Shown in pieces: positions 34,262 to 60,582 of a stretch of DNA of 64,000 bases. Origin of the DNA: Aequorivita aquimaris (GTDB lineage: Bacteria > Bacteroidota > Bacteroidia > Flavobacteriales > Flavobacteriaceae); NCBI RefSeq assembly GCF_001573155.1, contig NZ_JRWG01000002.1, positions 186,001 to 250,000 on the forward strand, given 5' to 3'. Each line of letters starts with the position of its first letter. Positions within the stretch are counted from its first letter, which is position 1. The notes under the pieces are model-generated. The model made no database searches. It worked only from the letters and a program-made list of their open reading frames with translations, and was not told the origin of the DNA. Position numbers and translations under genes: made by a program.

Positions 34262-35293
34262 ATGCAACTGTACAACAAATTAAGTGCAAAAGAGAGGGAA
34301 GCATTGTTGGAACAGGCCGGCGAGGAACGGCTAACCCTTTCTTTTTATCAATATGCCAAAATTGGCAATCCGCATCTTTTCCGTAACCATCTTTTTGTTG
34401 CCTGGCACGAGCAGGACGTTTTGGGCCGAATTTACGTAGCCCACGAAGGCATAAACGCCCAGCTTTCCGTTCCGGCGAAGCGTTTTAAGGAATTTAAGGA
34501 GTTTCTTGACGGTATTTATTTTCTGAAAGACGTACGTTTGAACATTGCCATTGAGCAAGATTTGAAGTCATTTCTAAAACTGAAAGTAAAAGTGCGCGAC
34601 AAGATTGTTGCCGATGGCTTGAATGACGAAACCTTCGACGTTACCAATAAGGGAATCCACGTGGATGCGCAAAAATTCAACGAACTTATTGAAGATCCCG
34701 ATGTGGTTTTGGTAGATATGCGAAACCATTACGAAAGCGAAATTGGTCATTTCAAAAACGCCGTCACGCCAGATGTGGATACGTTTCGCGATTCATTGGA
34801 TATAATCGAGGCAGATTTAAAAGACCACAAAGAAGACAAAAAACTGGTAATGTACTGCACGGGCGGCATCCGTTGCGAAAAAGCCAGCGCTTACTATAAA
34901 CACAAGGGTTTTAAAAATGTATTTCAGCTTGAGGGCGGCATTATTGAATACGCACGCCAAGTGGAAAATTTAGGTTTGGAAAATAAATTCATCGGAAAAA
35001 ATTTCGTTTTTGACCATCGCCGTGGCGAACGCATTACAGATGATGTAATTTCAAACTGCCACCAATGCGGTGAACCCTGCGACACGCATACCAATTGCGC
35101 CAACGAGGCCTGCCACTTGCTTTTTATTCAATGTGAGAAATGTGCCGTGGCAATGGAAAACTGTTGTTCCGAAGAATGTATCGAGATAATCCACTTGCCC
35201 TACGAAGAGCAGAAACGCCTGCGCCAGGGCATCCCGAACAGTAATAAGATTTTTAAAAAAGGGCGTTCGGAGAAGTTGAAGTTTAAAAAGTAG
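34262..35293 (+). CDS. trhO: tRNA uridine(34) hydroxylase TrhO (rhodanese-like)
   Basis: 343 residues. Oxygen-dependent hydroxylation of U34 in tRNA, a step towards 5-carboxymethoxy- or methoxy-uridine, is the role of the YceA/TrhO family. The N-terminus is an acylphosphatase-like domain (about 15-110), the middle a rhodanese domain (about 125-235) with the active-site Cys in YCTGGIRCEKAS, and the C-terminus has a Cys-rich tail (CHQCGEPCDTHTNCANEACH, CEKC, CCSEEC) typical of the longer family members. Confidence 0.93.
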   Translation: MQLYNKLSAKEREALLEQAGEERLTLSFYQYAKIGNPHLFRNHLFVAWHEQDVLGRIYVAHEGINAQLSVPAKRFKEFKEFLDGIYFLKDVRLNIAIEQDLKSFLKLKVKVRDKIVADGLNDETFDVTNKGIHVDAQKFNELIEDPDVVLVDMRNHYESEIGHFKNAVTPDVDTFRDSLDIIEADLKDHKEDKKLVMYCTGGIRCEKASAYYKHKGFKNVFQLEGGIIEYARQVENLGLENKFIGKNFVFDHRRGERITDDVISNCHQCGEPCDTHTNCANEACHLLFIQCEKCAVAMENCCSEECIEIIHLPYEEQKRLRQGIPNSNKIFKKGRSEKLKFKK

Positions 35294-35371
35294 TCCTCCC
35301 CCCGCCCCTCCAAAGGAGGGGAGAAACAGGGTTATTATTCCATCCCCTTTGGAGAGGGTTAGGGTGGGGAC
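35294..35371. repeat. GC-rich palindromic repeat, intergenic copy
   Basis: Two inverted halves: CCTCC...GCCCCTCCAAAGGAGGGG on the left (35295-35322) and CCCCTTTGGAGAGGGTTAGG with GTGGGGA on the right (35344-35370). The halves pair with each other, and the left half also folds on itself around CCAAAGG. Its GC content is far above the surroundings. Related sequences lie inside hemC and hemD. Confidence 0.75.
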
Positions 35372-35514
35372 TTTTGGCAGGATTGGGTTAGGGGCTTCAA
35401 AAATCTAAAATCGTCAATCCTAAATCGAAAATATTATTGGTATCTTTACTGATTCATTTATTTGTTTAATTTTCGTCCCTCTTCATTTGGAAAAGGGCTT
35501 TATATATAAAAAAT

Positions 35515-43253: not shown

Positions 43254-46200
43254 ATGAAAAAAATTAACAAAATCGTTTTTCTATTTTCGTTGATCATCTT
43301 TGCGTTTTCCGGGGTGGTTTCTGCCCAAGACAAAAAAGATGAAAAGAGAAACGTAAAAGAACCACCAAGTCTAGTAGTTTTTGATGCCTCGCAATCCTAT
43401 TCGCTTCAAAACTCCTCCCAAATTTTCAAGGAAGTTTTAAATCCATCCCCACAAACTTCCTTCACTACGCTAAAACAAGAACAAGATCCTTTAGGCTTTA
43501 CCCACCAAAAAATGCAGCAGTATTTTAATGGTGTAAAAGTGGAATTTGCAACCGTAACATTGAGCAGTAAAAATGGAATGGTACAGACACTGAATTCATT
43601 TTATTCCCCCATTGCAGATGATTTTAGTGTTACAGCTTCTATTACTGGCCCGCAAGCTTTGAACAGTGCTATGGCTCACGTGGGTGCTACAAAATATATG
43701 TGGCAAAATGCTTCGGAAGCAGCTTTGGCAGATTATCAAAAGCCCACGGGTGAATTGGTGATTTTCCCTGCAATGAAGAATATTTCTGAAACCAACCGAC
43801 TTGCCTATAAGTTTGATATTTACGCAACGGCACCCCTTTACAGAGCCGATGTATATATTGATGCGAAAACGGGACAATTCATTTTTGAAAACAAGCGTAT
43901 TCACCATGCCAATGTGCCCGCAACGGGAACCAGCCTTTATAACGGCACGGTGTCCTTTACGGCCGATAATGCCTCTGGCCCATACCGTTTGCGTCAAACA
44001 GCTGATGGTAACGGAATTCAGACCTTTGACATGAATAACGGCACCAACTATAACAATGCGGTGGACGTTACAAGCAGTTCAACTAGCTTTACTTCCAATC
44101 CTACAGGTGTTCAAGCGCACTTTGGTGCGGAGCGTACTCACAAATACTTCAGCCAAAAACACGGAAGAAATTCCTATAACAATGCGGGAGCCATTATAAA
44201 ATCCTACGTTAGCTATTCCTCAAATTATGTGAATGCATTTTGGGACGGTAGCAGAATGACTTACGGCGACGGTGATGGCGTAAACTACGGCCCATTGGTA
44301 TCCTTGGATATTTGTGGCCACGAGATTGCGCACGGCGTTACCGAATATTCCGCAAACCTTGTTTATAGCTACCAATCGGGAGCTTTGAATGAATCGTTCT
44401 CAGATATTTTTGGGGAATCCATTGAAAAGTTTGCCTCTGGCACAAACGATTGGCTAATGGGTGATGACATTGGTGCTGGCGGAAGCGGTGGTGCACTTCG
44501 CTCCATGAGCAACCCAAATGCCTACGGCGATCCAGACACTTATTTGGGAACCAATTGGTATTCCGGCTCAGGCGATAATGGCGGGGTACACATAAACTCT
44601 GGGGTACAAAACTTCTGGTTTTATATTTTAACCGTAGGTAAAAGCGGTACCAACGATTTAGGAAACAGCTATAACGTTACCGGAATCGGGATGGACAAAG
44701 CAGCTGCCATTGCTTACAGAAACCTAACTGTTTATTTAAATTCAAACTCACAGTACAGCGATGCAAGAAATGGTGCTATTCAAGCCGCAAGAGATCTTTA
44801 TGGTGCAGATAGCCCAGAGGAAATTGCAACCACAAACGCTTGGTATGCTGTAGGTGTTGGCGCTCCATACGGTGGTGGTGGCGGAAGCAGCTATTGTGCT
44901 TCACAGGGTAACAATGTAAATGATGAATACATAAGTCGCGTACAGTTGAACACCATCAATAATGCTTCGGGCGCACAACTTTATTCAGATTTTACAAGTA
45001 TTTCTACTACCTTAAATGAAGGCTCAGCTTATACCATTACTGTAACTCCTACTTGGACCGGAACTGTTTACAGCGAAGGCTATGCCGTGTGGATTGATTA
45101 TAACGGTGATGATGATTTTGGTGATGCAGGTGAATTGGTTTGGTCCAAAGCTGCTTCCACAAACACTCCAAACAGTGGAACGTTTACTGTGCCATCTGGG
45201 ACTGTTGGCGGCGAAACAAGAATGAGGGTTTCCATGAAATACAATGGAATTCCAACTTCCTGTGAAACTTTCAGCTATGGTGAAGTAGAAGACTATACAA
45301 TCAACTTGGGAGGCGCTGCACCAGATACGCAGGCTCCAACTGCGCCGGGAAGTCTGTCAGCTTCAAACGTAACACAGACCACGCTTACACTTTCGTGGAA
45401 TGCTTCCACAGACAATGTGGGCGTAACGGGTTATGATGTTTTCCAAGGCAGTACAAACTTAGGAAGCGTTACAAGCACCTCAGCAAACATTACTGGATTG
45501 TCCCCTGCTACCGCTTATTCCTTTAGAGTACGTGCACACGATGCGGCTGGCAACAATTCCGGCTTCAGCAATACTGTGAATGTTACCACACTTTCAAATA
45601 CGGTTACTTATTGTACTTCACAAGGAAACAATACAAATGATGAATACATAGATAGAGTCCAACTAGGAAGCATCAACAATCTTTCCGGTAACAATGGTGG
45701 GTATGCAGATTTCACAAGTATTTCTACTTCATTAACCAAAGGAAGCAGCAATACAATCACCATTACACCACGATGGACGGGTACTGTATATCGTGAAGCA
45801 TACCGCGTATGGATTGATTATAACCAGGATGGCGATTTCAATGATTCTGGCGAGCAGGTTTACTCACGCTCCAGAACTACTGCGTCTTCAGTTTCTGGAA
45901 GTTTTACCGTACCTACTTCAGCACTTTCGGGTGCAACCAGAATGCGCGTTTCTATGAAGTATAACGCAAATCCAACTTCTTGTGAAACTTTTACGTATGG
46001 TGAAGTGGAAGATTATACCGTGATCATCAGTAATTCAGTGAACCAAGGTATTTCTAGAGGTACAGGTTTCAACAGTTCAGAAATGTCTATCTATCCAAAC
46101 CCTGCAAAACATACGTTAAATATTTCGTTAGTTGAGGCAAATGGAAAGGATTATGTAATCTATAACATAATGGGACAGGTTGTTGGCAAAGGAAATTATA

Positions 46201-58933: not shown

Positions 58934-59617
58934 TTATTTTAATATTTTCACAGCTTTGGCAATTACGCTTTCCACGGTTGTGGCATTTGCAATTACTACG
59001 TTTTCGGTATATTTTTTTGCTTCGGAAGCAGTCGTTGTGCCAATACAAACGAATGTTGGTTCATCATTAATGAGATTGCTTCGTTCCTCGCAATAACTTC
59101 GCACGCCGCTTGGACTGAAAAACAAGATTGCATCAAACTGCCTTGCAAATTTTTTCGGATTCAACGTTGTTTTATATACTTCAATTTCTTCAAAAGCGAT
59201 ATGGTTTTCCTTCAATTTTGAGGGAATTTCATCGCTTCGGATGTTTCCGCAGAAAAAGTGAAAGGAATCATTTTTATGGCTTTCAACTAAATACGAAGCC
59301 AATTCGGAAGCATATTCGGTCATTTTGACCACTTTGAAACCGTTTTCTTCCAAAAGTGATTTCGTCTTTTCACCAACGCAAAACATCCTCACCTCCGACC
59401 CCTCTCCTTCCAAAGTAGAGGGGAGTTGGTCTTTTTCATTTAAATAGGCCTTCACAGCATTTTGACTTGTGAAAATAGCATTTTCCACAGTATTCGGGGC
59501 TTTAAAAGGAACAAATTCAATGTTTATGGCATTGTAATCTACGAGAGAAATTCCGGCGTTCACGAGCAGTTCCCTTTGAGAAGGACTCAATTTTTTTGTT
59601 GAGAGAACGCTTTTCAT
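58934..59617 (-). CDS. hemD: Uroporphyrinogen-III synthase, with an in-frame repeat insertion
   Basis: Closes hydroxymethylbilane to uroporphyrinogen III. 227 residues; the family is weakly conserved, but the order hemA-hemC-hemD-hemE and the phrases [12 protein letters not shown] (near 48-59) and [19 protein letters not shown] support it. Between them, [13 protein letters not shown] (about 64-76) is encoded by a palindromic repeat (59387-59429) that looks like an insertion into a surface loop. Flanking residues keep the fold, so it is probably functional. Confidence 0.92.
59387..59429. repeat. GC-rich palindromic repeat inside hemD
   Basis: CCTCACCTCCGACCCCTCTC then CTTCCAAAG then TAGAGGGGAGTTGG. 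The inner arms CCCCTCT and AGAGGGG pair. It has the same CCAAAG centre and CCTCMCC...GGGG flanks as the 35294 element. Translated in frame on the minus strand. Confidence 0.7.
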
Positions 59618-59637: not shown

Positions 59638-60582
59638 TTACTTATTGATCTGGCTCTTGATTTGCGCCATCAATTCGCTGCCGCCATTTTTCAAAATCTG
59701 CAAGGCGCATTCCTTTCCAAAATGTAGGTAATCGGTTTTGTCCACAGCCTTTTCAATCTCCAATTTTTCCTTTCCGTCCAAAGAAAACAGGCAGCCCTTA
59801 AGGAGGACCTTATCCTCAATTATTTCAGCAAACGAACCTATTGGCGCGGTACAGCCACCTTCGAGGGTTCTTAAGAATTCACGTTCTATATGGGTGCAGA
59901 TTTCGGAAGCGGGATCATTTAATTTTGAAGTGGCATCCTTGGAAAAATCATCATTTTCCAAAGCTACAATAACCATTGCGCCCTGTGCCGGGGCGGGAAG
60001 CATCCAGTCTAAAGCCTCCCCAACTCCTCCAAAGGAGGGGCTTATTATGTGCGCTTCGCTCACATATCCTAATCTCTGTAAACCAGCTTTTGCGAAAATT
60101 GCACCTTGCCAGTCATTATCACTTAATTTTTGAAGTCGGGTATTTACGTTTCCTCGTAAATCCACAACTTTATGATGCGGATATCGATTTAACCATTGTG
60201 CCTGACGGCGTAAACTTCCGGTGGCAATCGTGCATGGTTTTTCGAAATCTATTACATTCTTTGTCACCAAAATATCTTCGGAAGAGGCGCGCGCCAAAAC
60301 AGCGGTCTGCACGATGCCATTGGGCAATTGCGTGGGCACGTCCTTCATACTGTGCACGGCAATGTCCACCGTGCCCTTTATCATTGCGACGTCCAGCGTT
60401 TTGGTGAAAATGCCAGTGATGCCCATTTCGTAAAGAGGCTTGTCCAATACCAAATCGCCTTCGGACTTTACGGGAACCAGCTGGGTGGTATAGCCCAAAG
60501 CCTCAAGTTTGGATTTTACGGTGTTGGCTTGCCAAAGTGCAAGTTCACTGTCGCGGGTGCCAATTCGGATTGTTTTTTTCAA
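59638..60582 (-). CDS. hemC: Hydroxymethylbilane synthase, with an in-frame repeat insertion
   Basis: Polymerises four porphobilinogens to hydroxymethylbilane. 314 residues. It begins with IRIGTRDSELALWQA, has MKDVPTQLP, and binds its dipyrromethane cofactor through the Cys in LEGGCTAPIG (near 245). Just before the conserved LDWMLPAPAQGAM is SPSFGGVGEA (about 181-191), encoded by a palindromic repeat (60012-60043) that seems to be an insertion. Two bases after the hemA stop. Confidence 0.96.
   Translation of the reverse strand: MKKTIRIGTRDSELALWQANTVKSKLEALGYTTQLVPVKSEGDLVLDKPLYEMGITGIFTKTLDVAMIKGTVDIAVHSMKDVPTQLPNGIVQTAVLARASSEDILVTKNVIDFEKPCTIATGSLRRQAQWLNRYPHHKVVDLRGNVNTRLQKLSDNDWQGAIFAKAGLQRLGYVSEAHIISPSFGGVGEALDWMLPAPAQGAMVIVALENDDFSKDATSKLNDPASEICTHIEREFLRTLEGGCTAPIGSFAEIIEDKVLLKGCLFSLDGKEKLEIEKAVDKTDYLHFGKECALQILKNGGSELMAQIKSQINK
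60012..60043. repeat. GC-rich palindromic repeat inside hemC
   Basis: AAGCCTCCCCAACTCC followed by TCCAAAGGAGGGGCTT. The ends AAGCC/GGCTT and CTCC/GGAG pair. The right 17 bases differ from those of the 35294 intergenic element at only one to two positions (TCCAAAGGAGGGG is identical). Translated in frame as SPSFGGVGEA. Confidence 0.78.

Follow-up and report, generated by a model that had tools for sequence, protein, structure and literature searches.

The window, by which we mean the whole 64,000-nucleotide stretch of Aequorivita aquimaris DNA that was analysed (GC content 41%), carries hemC and hemD next to each other on the minus strand. A GC-rich palindrome of 30 nt lies in frame inside hemC, and related copies are found in hemD and between genes. 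The features are listed below, where R1 is a covariance model built from 44 copies of the repeat.

59638..60582, minus strand: hemC, porphobilinogen deaminase, 314 aa (ORF; Pfam PF01379 at 6.2e-67 and PF03900 at 1.4e-15)
60013..60042, minus strand: in-frame palindromic element, residues 181-190, SPSFGGVGEA (R1 match 60009-60043, E 3.2e-8; an R1 training sequence)
60046..60066, no strand assigned: second small palindrome, TATGTGCGCTTCGCTCACATA, in hemC just upstream of the insert
58934..59617, minus strand: hemD, uroporphyrinogen-III synthase, 227 aa (ORF; Pfam PF02602 at 6.6e-34)
59390..59429, minus strand: diverged in-frame copy in hemD (R1 match 59384-59426, E 0.054)
35294..35322, minus strand: intergenic copy, first of an inverted pair (R1 match 35290-35324, E 1.4e-9; an R1 training sequence)
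35342..35374, plus strand: intergenic copy, second of the inverted pair, diverged (by eye; no R1 match at E<=1)

As the original prediction had it, the hemC palindrome codes in frame for SPSFGGVGEA, directly before the conserved LDWM..APAQGAM; its exact span is 60013-60042. In the gene direction it reads AGCCCCTCCTTTGGAGGAGTTGGGGAGGCT, with a hairpin CCCCTCC-TTT-GGAGG.., two spacer bases, a mirrored GGGGAGG tail, and the ends AAGC and GCTT. It had been described as almost the same as the intergenic repeat at 35294-35322. This is more true of the 13-nt core TCCAAAGGAGGGG, which has two exact occurrences in the window (35309 and 60028), than of the whole 30 nt, over which 8 positions separate the intergenic copy from the HemC consensus. 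With up to two mismatches, this core gave 3 matches in the window alone as against 1.29 expected, which is a weak statistic. The small palindrome at 60046-60066 was altered in those relatives whose alignment was inspected. It was rejected as a repeat family, as its match in the window was itself only, and the genome gave 4 matches as against 3 for the control (up to three mismatches).

We also evaluated the open frames of the element. All six frames are free of stop codons in the window copy and in four of the six typed variants; in the other two, which carry TTAGGGG, four frames are open. Random 32-mers had on average 3.0 open frames, with 0.9% open in all six, at 37% GC (3.7 and 5% at 50% GC). 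The original prediction had looked to a surface loop at this point of the protein; what the AlphaFold model of HemC (mean pLDDT 91.0) gave is a confident local beta-hairpin, with strands at residues 178-180 and 185-191 and a block pLDDT of 89-90. The intact frame and the conserved residues indicate that the enzyme is probably unbroken by the insert. We consider that the element survives in genes because its typical versions have no stop in six frames, because the length it adds overall is divisible by three, and because the loop that it entered is tolerant.

Distribution and history of the HemC insert

We compared the HemC of the window with that of 80 loci, the best 80 of 258 relatives and so not a random sample. 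The ten-residue insert was present in 10 of the 81 sequences, and the other 71 had a 10-residue gap at this position, in agreement with the gap of 8-12 residues that had been anticipated in close relatives. The homologues of known structure include the deaminases of E. coli and of other organisms. In the two structure alignments that were inspected, both with the E. coli enzyme, 8 residues were a gap at the insert position. The carriers besides the window are L008, L009, L010, L011, L018, L024 and L035, together with two decayed forms, L015 and L023, that retain the 10-residue length. In 8 sequences the insert DNA has 0-3 mismatches to the consensus over 30 positions, as against 6 in L023 and more than 9 in L015. 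Comparison of the DNA of the carriers showed that the silent positions of the insert are conserved too.

The nearest HemC to that of the window in the relatives search was from A. vladivostokensis (96% identical), while the most distant carrier was L024, with a HemC 70% identical to the window's. Distant relatives had been singled out as the place where the same residues might occur apart from the repeat family. L024, which branches beside Patiriisocius and outside Aequorivita, has the residues together with the element DNA (3/30 mismatches). There are four extra residues after the element in L008 and L009, and four before it in L024. L023, L024 and the greater part of the window clade have the upstream residues SEA(N/H/K)I in common, and the non-carriers have an outgroup-like LPEN-type loop. 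The HemC of A. todarodis (L009:4001-4972) also has a second in-frame insert near residue 107 (QPPLIPPRG; ILVQPPLIPPRGEID), which by peptide, and by eye, looks like another palindrome.

The history of the insert was followed on a tree of HemA and HemC protein with 29 rows, from which the loop columns were removed and in which decayed copies were scored as carriers. The insert label needed a minimum of 6 changes on this tree, all of them forced by starred branches, and a single clade of carriers was rejected (p-AU 3.7e-5). Thus, and here the result goes beyond the original prediction, gains or losses of the insert allele have recurred among the species. A plain deletion is an unlikely route of loss, because the non-carriers have the outgroup-like loop. 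We found no long tract of co-conversion or recombination around the insert along hemC when L024, L018, L011 and L035 were compared with carriers and non-carriers. L011, L035 and L018 were nearer to the carriers in about 9 codons beside the insert only; the corresponding value for L024 is not meaningful, as it is shifted by the four extra residues. The shared upstream SEA(N/H/K)I codons are a hint that some flanking sequence travelled with the insert. Repeated insertion at one site and transfer of insert-bearing alleles are both compatible with this pattern.

The dispersed repeat and its host loops

Further copies in and out of genes had been expected, and these were found. The 17-nt core CCCCTCCTTTGGAGGGG, allowing two mismatches, gave 106 strand matches in 28 same-genus genomes as against 5 for the reversed pattern; the core is a near-palindrome, and two listed places were counted on both strands. 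At least one core match was present in 25 of the 28 genomes. The repeat has the consensus nCTCCCCTCCTTTGGAGGGGTTGGGGGAGGnCTTn and a length of about 30-33 bp. R1 at E<=0.1 likewise had matches in 25/28 genus genomes, ranging from 0 to 28 per genome. The own genome of the window (G000) had 14 matches at E<=0.1 and 20 at E<=1, and 5 of the 14 belong to one tandem array at C7. This array (G000 C7:91329-91654; L238, L240, L241, L242, L244) consists of five units of about 73 bp, each with a palindrome resembling those by the DUF559 gene at C5.

We fetched 114 stretches around listed R1 or core matches, a subset of all matches, and scanned these loci and the window with a weight matrix. The scan, which includes the training set and counts orthologues in different species separately, gave 74 distinct places at 35 bits or more. 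By short motifs, 37 of these lay in coding genes (LeuRS 15, PurL 13, HemC 7, ValRS 1 and M19 dipeptidase 1). Another 6 fell in further long frames (several of these frames seem to begin after the element), and 31 had no recognised gene or 240-aa frame. In the own genome, a heavy-metal P-type ATPase and a frame with Mfd domains carried weaker in-frame copies. The HemC, PurL, heavy-metal ATPase and Mfd copies of this genome all sit in open coding frames. The element is therefore dispersed, its copies lying in intergenic DNA and, with differing frames and orientations, in unrelated proteins, and these data support the proposal of a mobile palindrome that inserted into a loop. The ValRS, M19 dipeptidase, ATPase and Mfd copies are to be regarded as candidate inserts.

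Four matches of one frame type (L130, L132, L135 and L145) were rejected as element copies. They look like chance, since the peptide appears to be a normal conserved motif, which by eye we take to be that of SdhA. In L099, L101, L125, L144 and L195 the element adjoins sequence resembling the 3' end of 23S rRNA. In L106, L140, L100, L150 and L160, from several species, the element lies just 5' of an apparent gene start (MKKYTDTGKK..), where it may affect translation.

Of the 28 genus genomes, 26 yielded a PurL (L358-L383), and the linker before its glutaminase domain (..FPKNFTGK..RPKAAVIREKG) was compared by eye and checked by mismatch counts. This linker holds the CCCCTCC family in 13 genomes, 9 in one orientation (in G005 a few residues off) and 4 in the opposite one, so both orientations of the family occur in one linker. 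In 10 genomes it holds a palindrome around GAGCGCAGTCGA (1 mismatch in G004 and G015, 3 in G012), a motif of which there was no mention among the literature matches listed, as far as their available text goes. Two genomes have the CGGCTCCGCTCGG type (G003 fits both types at 1 mismatch), and one, G001, has none.

The HemD of A. vladivostokensis (L008) and that of A. todarodis (L009) have an insert similar to the window's. Among the other 25 HemD in the comparison, both the length and the content of this loop varied, and most had a shorter one. A CCCCTCT-type copy in the window clade stands against CHPERSRR in L017, which was judged by its peptide to be of the GAGCGCAGTCGA type; L017 and L019 appear by peptide to have this family where other species have the CCCCTCC family. 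The HemD loop thus seems to show the same palindrome turnover as the PurL linker. This argues for a few loops that receive palindromes of different families, with loop tolerance as one filter. Loop tolerance, and not enzyme specificity, may explain the recurrence, since the PurL linker was also hit by an unrelated palindrome.

DUF559 nucleases and palindromes

In one LeuRS frame (L139, 1216 aa), a DUF559 domain (PF04480) lies where the editing domain of LeuRS begins, with element-like peptides at its sides as judged by eye. Strict DUF559 matches (above 90 bits) numbered 41 in the genus. Sixteen of these were in frames of at least 840 aa, and 13 of the 16 were inspected. Other partial PF04480 matches, which by eye look like true Vsr, were left uncounted. 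DUF559 was present in frame in LeuRS, MetH and RecG, and in other genera of the family it was fused to HemD (directly behind hemC) and to HisD. In the six hemC-DUF559-hemD loci, hemC was present and its loop was empty.

We then counted hairpins (arm of at least 7 with at least 5 GC, loop of 3-8) within 200 bp of the DUF559 domain. An earlier rule with 6 G/C per arm had missed the palindromes at C5; the rule was loosened after these were seen, and an outside background was then added. The stricter and looser rules agree in direction. The loci were 55, the readable ones of 60; these are best matches and not a random sample, and orthologous hosts recur among them. Left out were L309 and L319, which were too short, and L314-L316, which were not DUF559 proper. 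We observed 77 hairpins (3.5 per kb), and 44 of the 55 loci had at least one. As background, the far parts of the same loci had 20 (0.20 per kb), and 685,809 bp from the 80 hemC loci had 34 (0.050 per kb). Such hairpins are thus linked to DUF559 nucleases, a point on which the original prediction was silent. By host, a hairpin was present in 18/20 loci for LeuRS, 15/19 for free genes, 5/6 for HemD, 4/4 for RecG, 1/1 for HisD and 1/5 for MetH. Host names given by eye and by typed motifs agreed in 55 of 56 loci (L309 and L314-L316 left out); the one difference, L333, lacked the HemD motif and was HemD by tblastn.

Among the free DUF559 genes, 7/19 had hairpins on both sides (L308, L310, L312, L320, L338, L341 and L343). 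Palindrome arrays, as seen by eye, surround the own-genome DUF559 genes at C5:12954-13268 and C1:87262-87570. The hairpins by DUF559 fall into several subfamilies, and many are unlike the HemC-type sequence. Two of the free genes, L303 and L320, are broken by a stop codon with hairpins close by, as is expected of decaying selfish genes.

The association was also evaluated across the family Flavobacteriaceae, with 249 genomes from 235 genera (thresholds: R1 at E<=0.01; best DUF559 E<=1e-9). R1 was present in 57 genomes, DUF559 in 90 and both in 48 (odds ratio 19, p 1.4e-17). DUF559 thus occurred in 48/57 element-positive genomes as against 42/192 element-negative ones, leaving 9 of the 57 without it. 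Inside the genus, the median element count was 10 for genomes whose DUF559 lies in large frames (n=13) and 3 for the rest (n=15; p 0.0008), although LeuRS copies feed both counts. The correlation of element count with the number of strict DUF559 genes was weak (rho 0.33, p 0.088), and G026 had 12 elements at E<=0.1 and no strict DUF559.

In a tree of 51 DUF559 domains from six host groups, the host label needed 5 changes, which is the least possible (shuffled mean 27.0). The nuclease lineages are therefore tied to one host gene each. Such grouping by host is the pattern of site-faithful homing nucleases; vertical descent within each host looks the same. The LeuRS DUF559 domains of the genus fall in two places in the tree, one beside another genus, which speaks for some transfer, although the starred branches do not force this.

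Proposed movement of the palindromes and its alternatives

The reading that we find likely as a whole is that of a dispersed palindrome, inserted in frame as coding sequence, whose movement is linked to DUF559. Its core, a mobile coding palindrome, we hold with high confidence, while the step in which the nuclease moves the palindromes is put forward with somewhat less than even confidence. A GC-rich repeat of about 30-33 bp (CCCCTCC-TTY-GGAGGGG with the mirrored GGGGAGG tail) would have inserted in frame in the HemC loop, and would be translated as ten extra residues, modelled in the small beta-hairpin. DUF559, a Vsr-like PD-(D/E)XK protein, would make a break, and repair would copy the hairpin-bearing sequence or unit. 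The solo hairpins in HemC, HemD and PurL may be non-autonomous or left-over forms of hairpin-DUF559-hairpin units, or riders. Causality could also be reversed, with DUF559 as a cargo that exploits palindromes moving otherwise.

It is unlikely, in our estimate, that this is an ordinary REP-type repeat moved by a RAYT (Y1_Tnp, PF01797) and that DUF559 has no role. REPs are hairpins of 20-40 bp, some of which lie in ORFs of other bacteria, tRNA synthetases included (PMC3733652, in the text available), and the Aequorivita repeat is a dispersed hairpin of this size in many copies, though at a number that is low for REP (14 in G000, 0 to 28 per genome). A PF01797 match is present in 19 of the 28 genus genomes, and RAYT subclass 2.6 of Bacteroidetes is described, in the part of the source available, as flanked by atypical secondary structures with copies elsewhere in the genome (PMC6006769). 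But REPs are tagged by GTAG/CGTC, and our consensus has neither tag. G000 has its 14 elements and no PF01797 match, and in the genus the element count was uncorrelated with PF01797 hits above 60 bits (rho -0.07, p 0.73). Four of five PF01797 loci inspected were without the core at up to three mismatches, and the fifth has it in a neighbouring dipeptidase gene. The RAYT is therefore not favoured as the mover. We give a similarly low chance to a single old insertion that was spread by transfer of hemC alleles through homologous recombination, with the element long inactive. Such transfer would leave shared upstream codons together with the insert, as seen in L023, L024 and the larger part of the window clade, which stand apart from one another in the tree. 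Against it, no long stretch of hemC brings L024, L018, L011 or L035 nearer to carriers than to non-carriers, the excess within Aequorivita being confined to the 9 or so codons by the insert, and the opposite orientations in one PurL linker are impossible from transfer of a single allele.

It is very unlikely that nothing moved at the site, and that an ancestral loop was retained or lost by lineage while selection on the peptide preserved the palindrome. The decayed L015 and L023 do indicate that the loop can outlast the DNA palindrome, and the common SEA(N/H/K)I residues fit with this. However, the carriers are scattered on the tree, simple deletion would not restore the LPEN-type loop of the non-carriers, the silent positions are conserved as well, and the same DNA turns up in intergenic sequence and also, with a different frame or orientation, in unrelated proteins. 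Even smaller is the chance that an RNA or DNA role in the hem genes, such as that of a terminator, attenuator or processing hairpin, maintains the palindrome. The strong inverted repeat and the copies outside long frames would suit such a function, but 71 of 81 hemC sequences do without the palindrome, no long T-run follows it on either strand, and copies lie in unrelated genes.

Palindromes that code for protein are an established curiosity, with Rickettsia as the best-described case, and are reportedly known from Wolbachia; we know of no mover identified for them. The HemC insert joins these, and the new part, at least as a new variant, is the DUF559 link of the family. The RPE of Rickettsia is likewise a palindromic repeat that adds a peptide in frame to conserved proteins and also occurs between genes; it was described, in the text available, in 19 reading frames with one product still active (PMC2229807). 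The Aequorivita element is set apart by its description, being about 30-33 bp as against 105-146 bp for the RPE, with the mirrored-tail layout and the DUF559 link, in Flavobacteriaceae.

Vsr-like homing enzymes exist, and the DUF559 domains in LeuRS, MetH, RecG and HemD resemble homing endonucleases in grouping by host gene. In the one LeuRS-DUF559 frame whose Pfam families were scanned (L139), no intein Hint domain was found; unlike in an intein, the nuclease appears to stay as an extra domain in its LeuRS host. VsrA of Caulobacter also has a DUF559 domain of the PD-(D/E)XK superfamily, but in the text available it is treated as a mismatch-repair nuclease (PMC12907096), whereas the Flavobacteriaceae DUF559 genes lie by palindromes or inside host enzymes. 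No connection of DUF559 to palindromes, or to insertion in LeuRS, MetH, RecG or HemD, appeared in the available text of the literature matches listed, whose scope mostly stops short of subscription journals.

Tentatively, the palindromes and DUF559 might together be an undescribed class of Flavobacteriaceae mobile elements that enters housekeeping enzymes in frame without splicing. A full hairpin-DUF559-hairpin unit would then give an extra nuclease domain (LeuRS, MetH, RecG, HemD, HisD), and a solo hairpin a short peptide (HemC, HemD, PurL, LeuRS, ValRS). Each nuclease lineage would home to one host site, and tolerant loops would be parking places where unrelated families replace each other. 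These findings suggest that enzymes of an essential type (LeuRS, HemC, PurL) can gain peptides, and even a whole nuclease domain, from selfish DNA. As the family has a linked nuclease, many comparable species and culturable hosts, the mover is directly testable, and the natural pairs with and without inserts would allow their cost to be measured.

Two further observations were made. In several Aequorivita loci, hemC and hemD, adjacent in the window, are about 2.4 kb apart; at L012:4907-7375 the intervening sequence holds two genes, by eye a Trk-type potassium uptake pair. Elsewhere in the window, at 44892-46018, there are two direct repeats, of 80 and 123 nt, 74% identical, with spacings of 717 and 720 nt.
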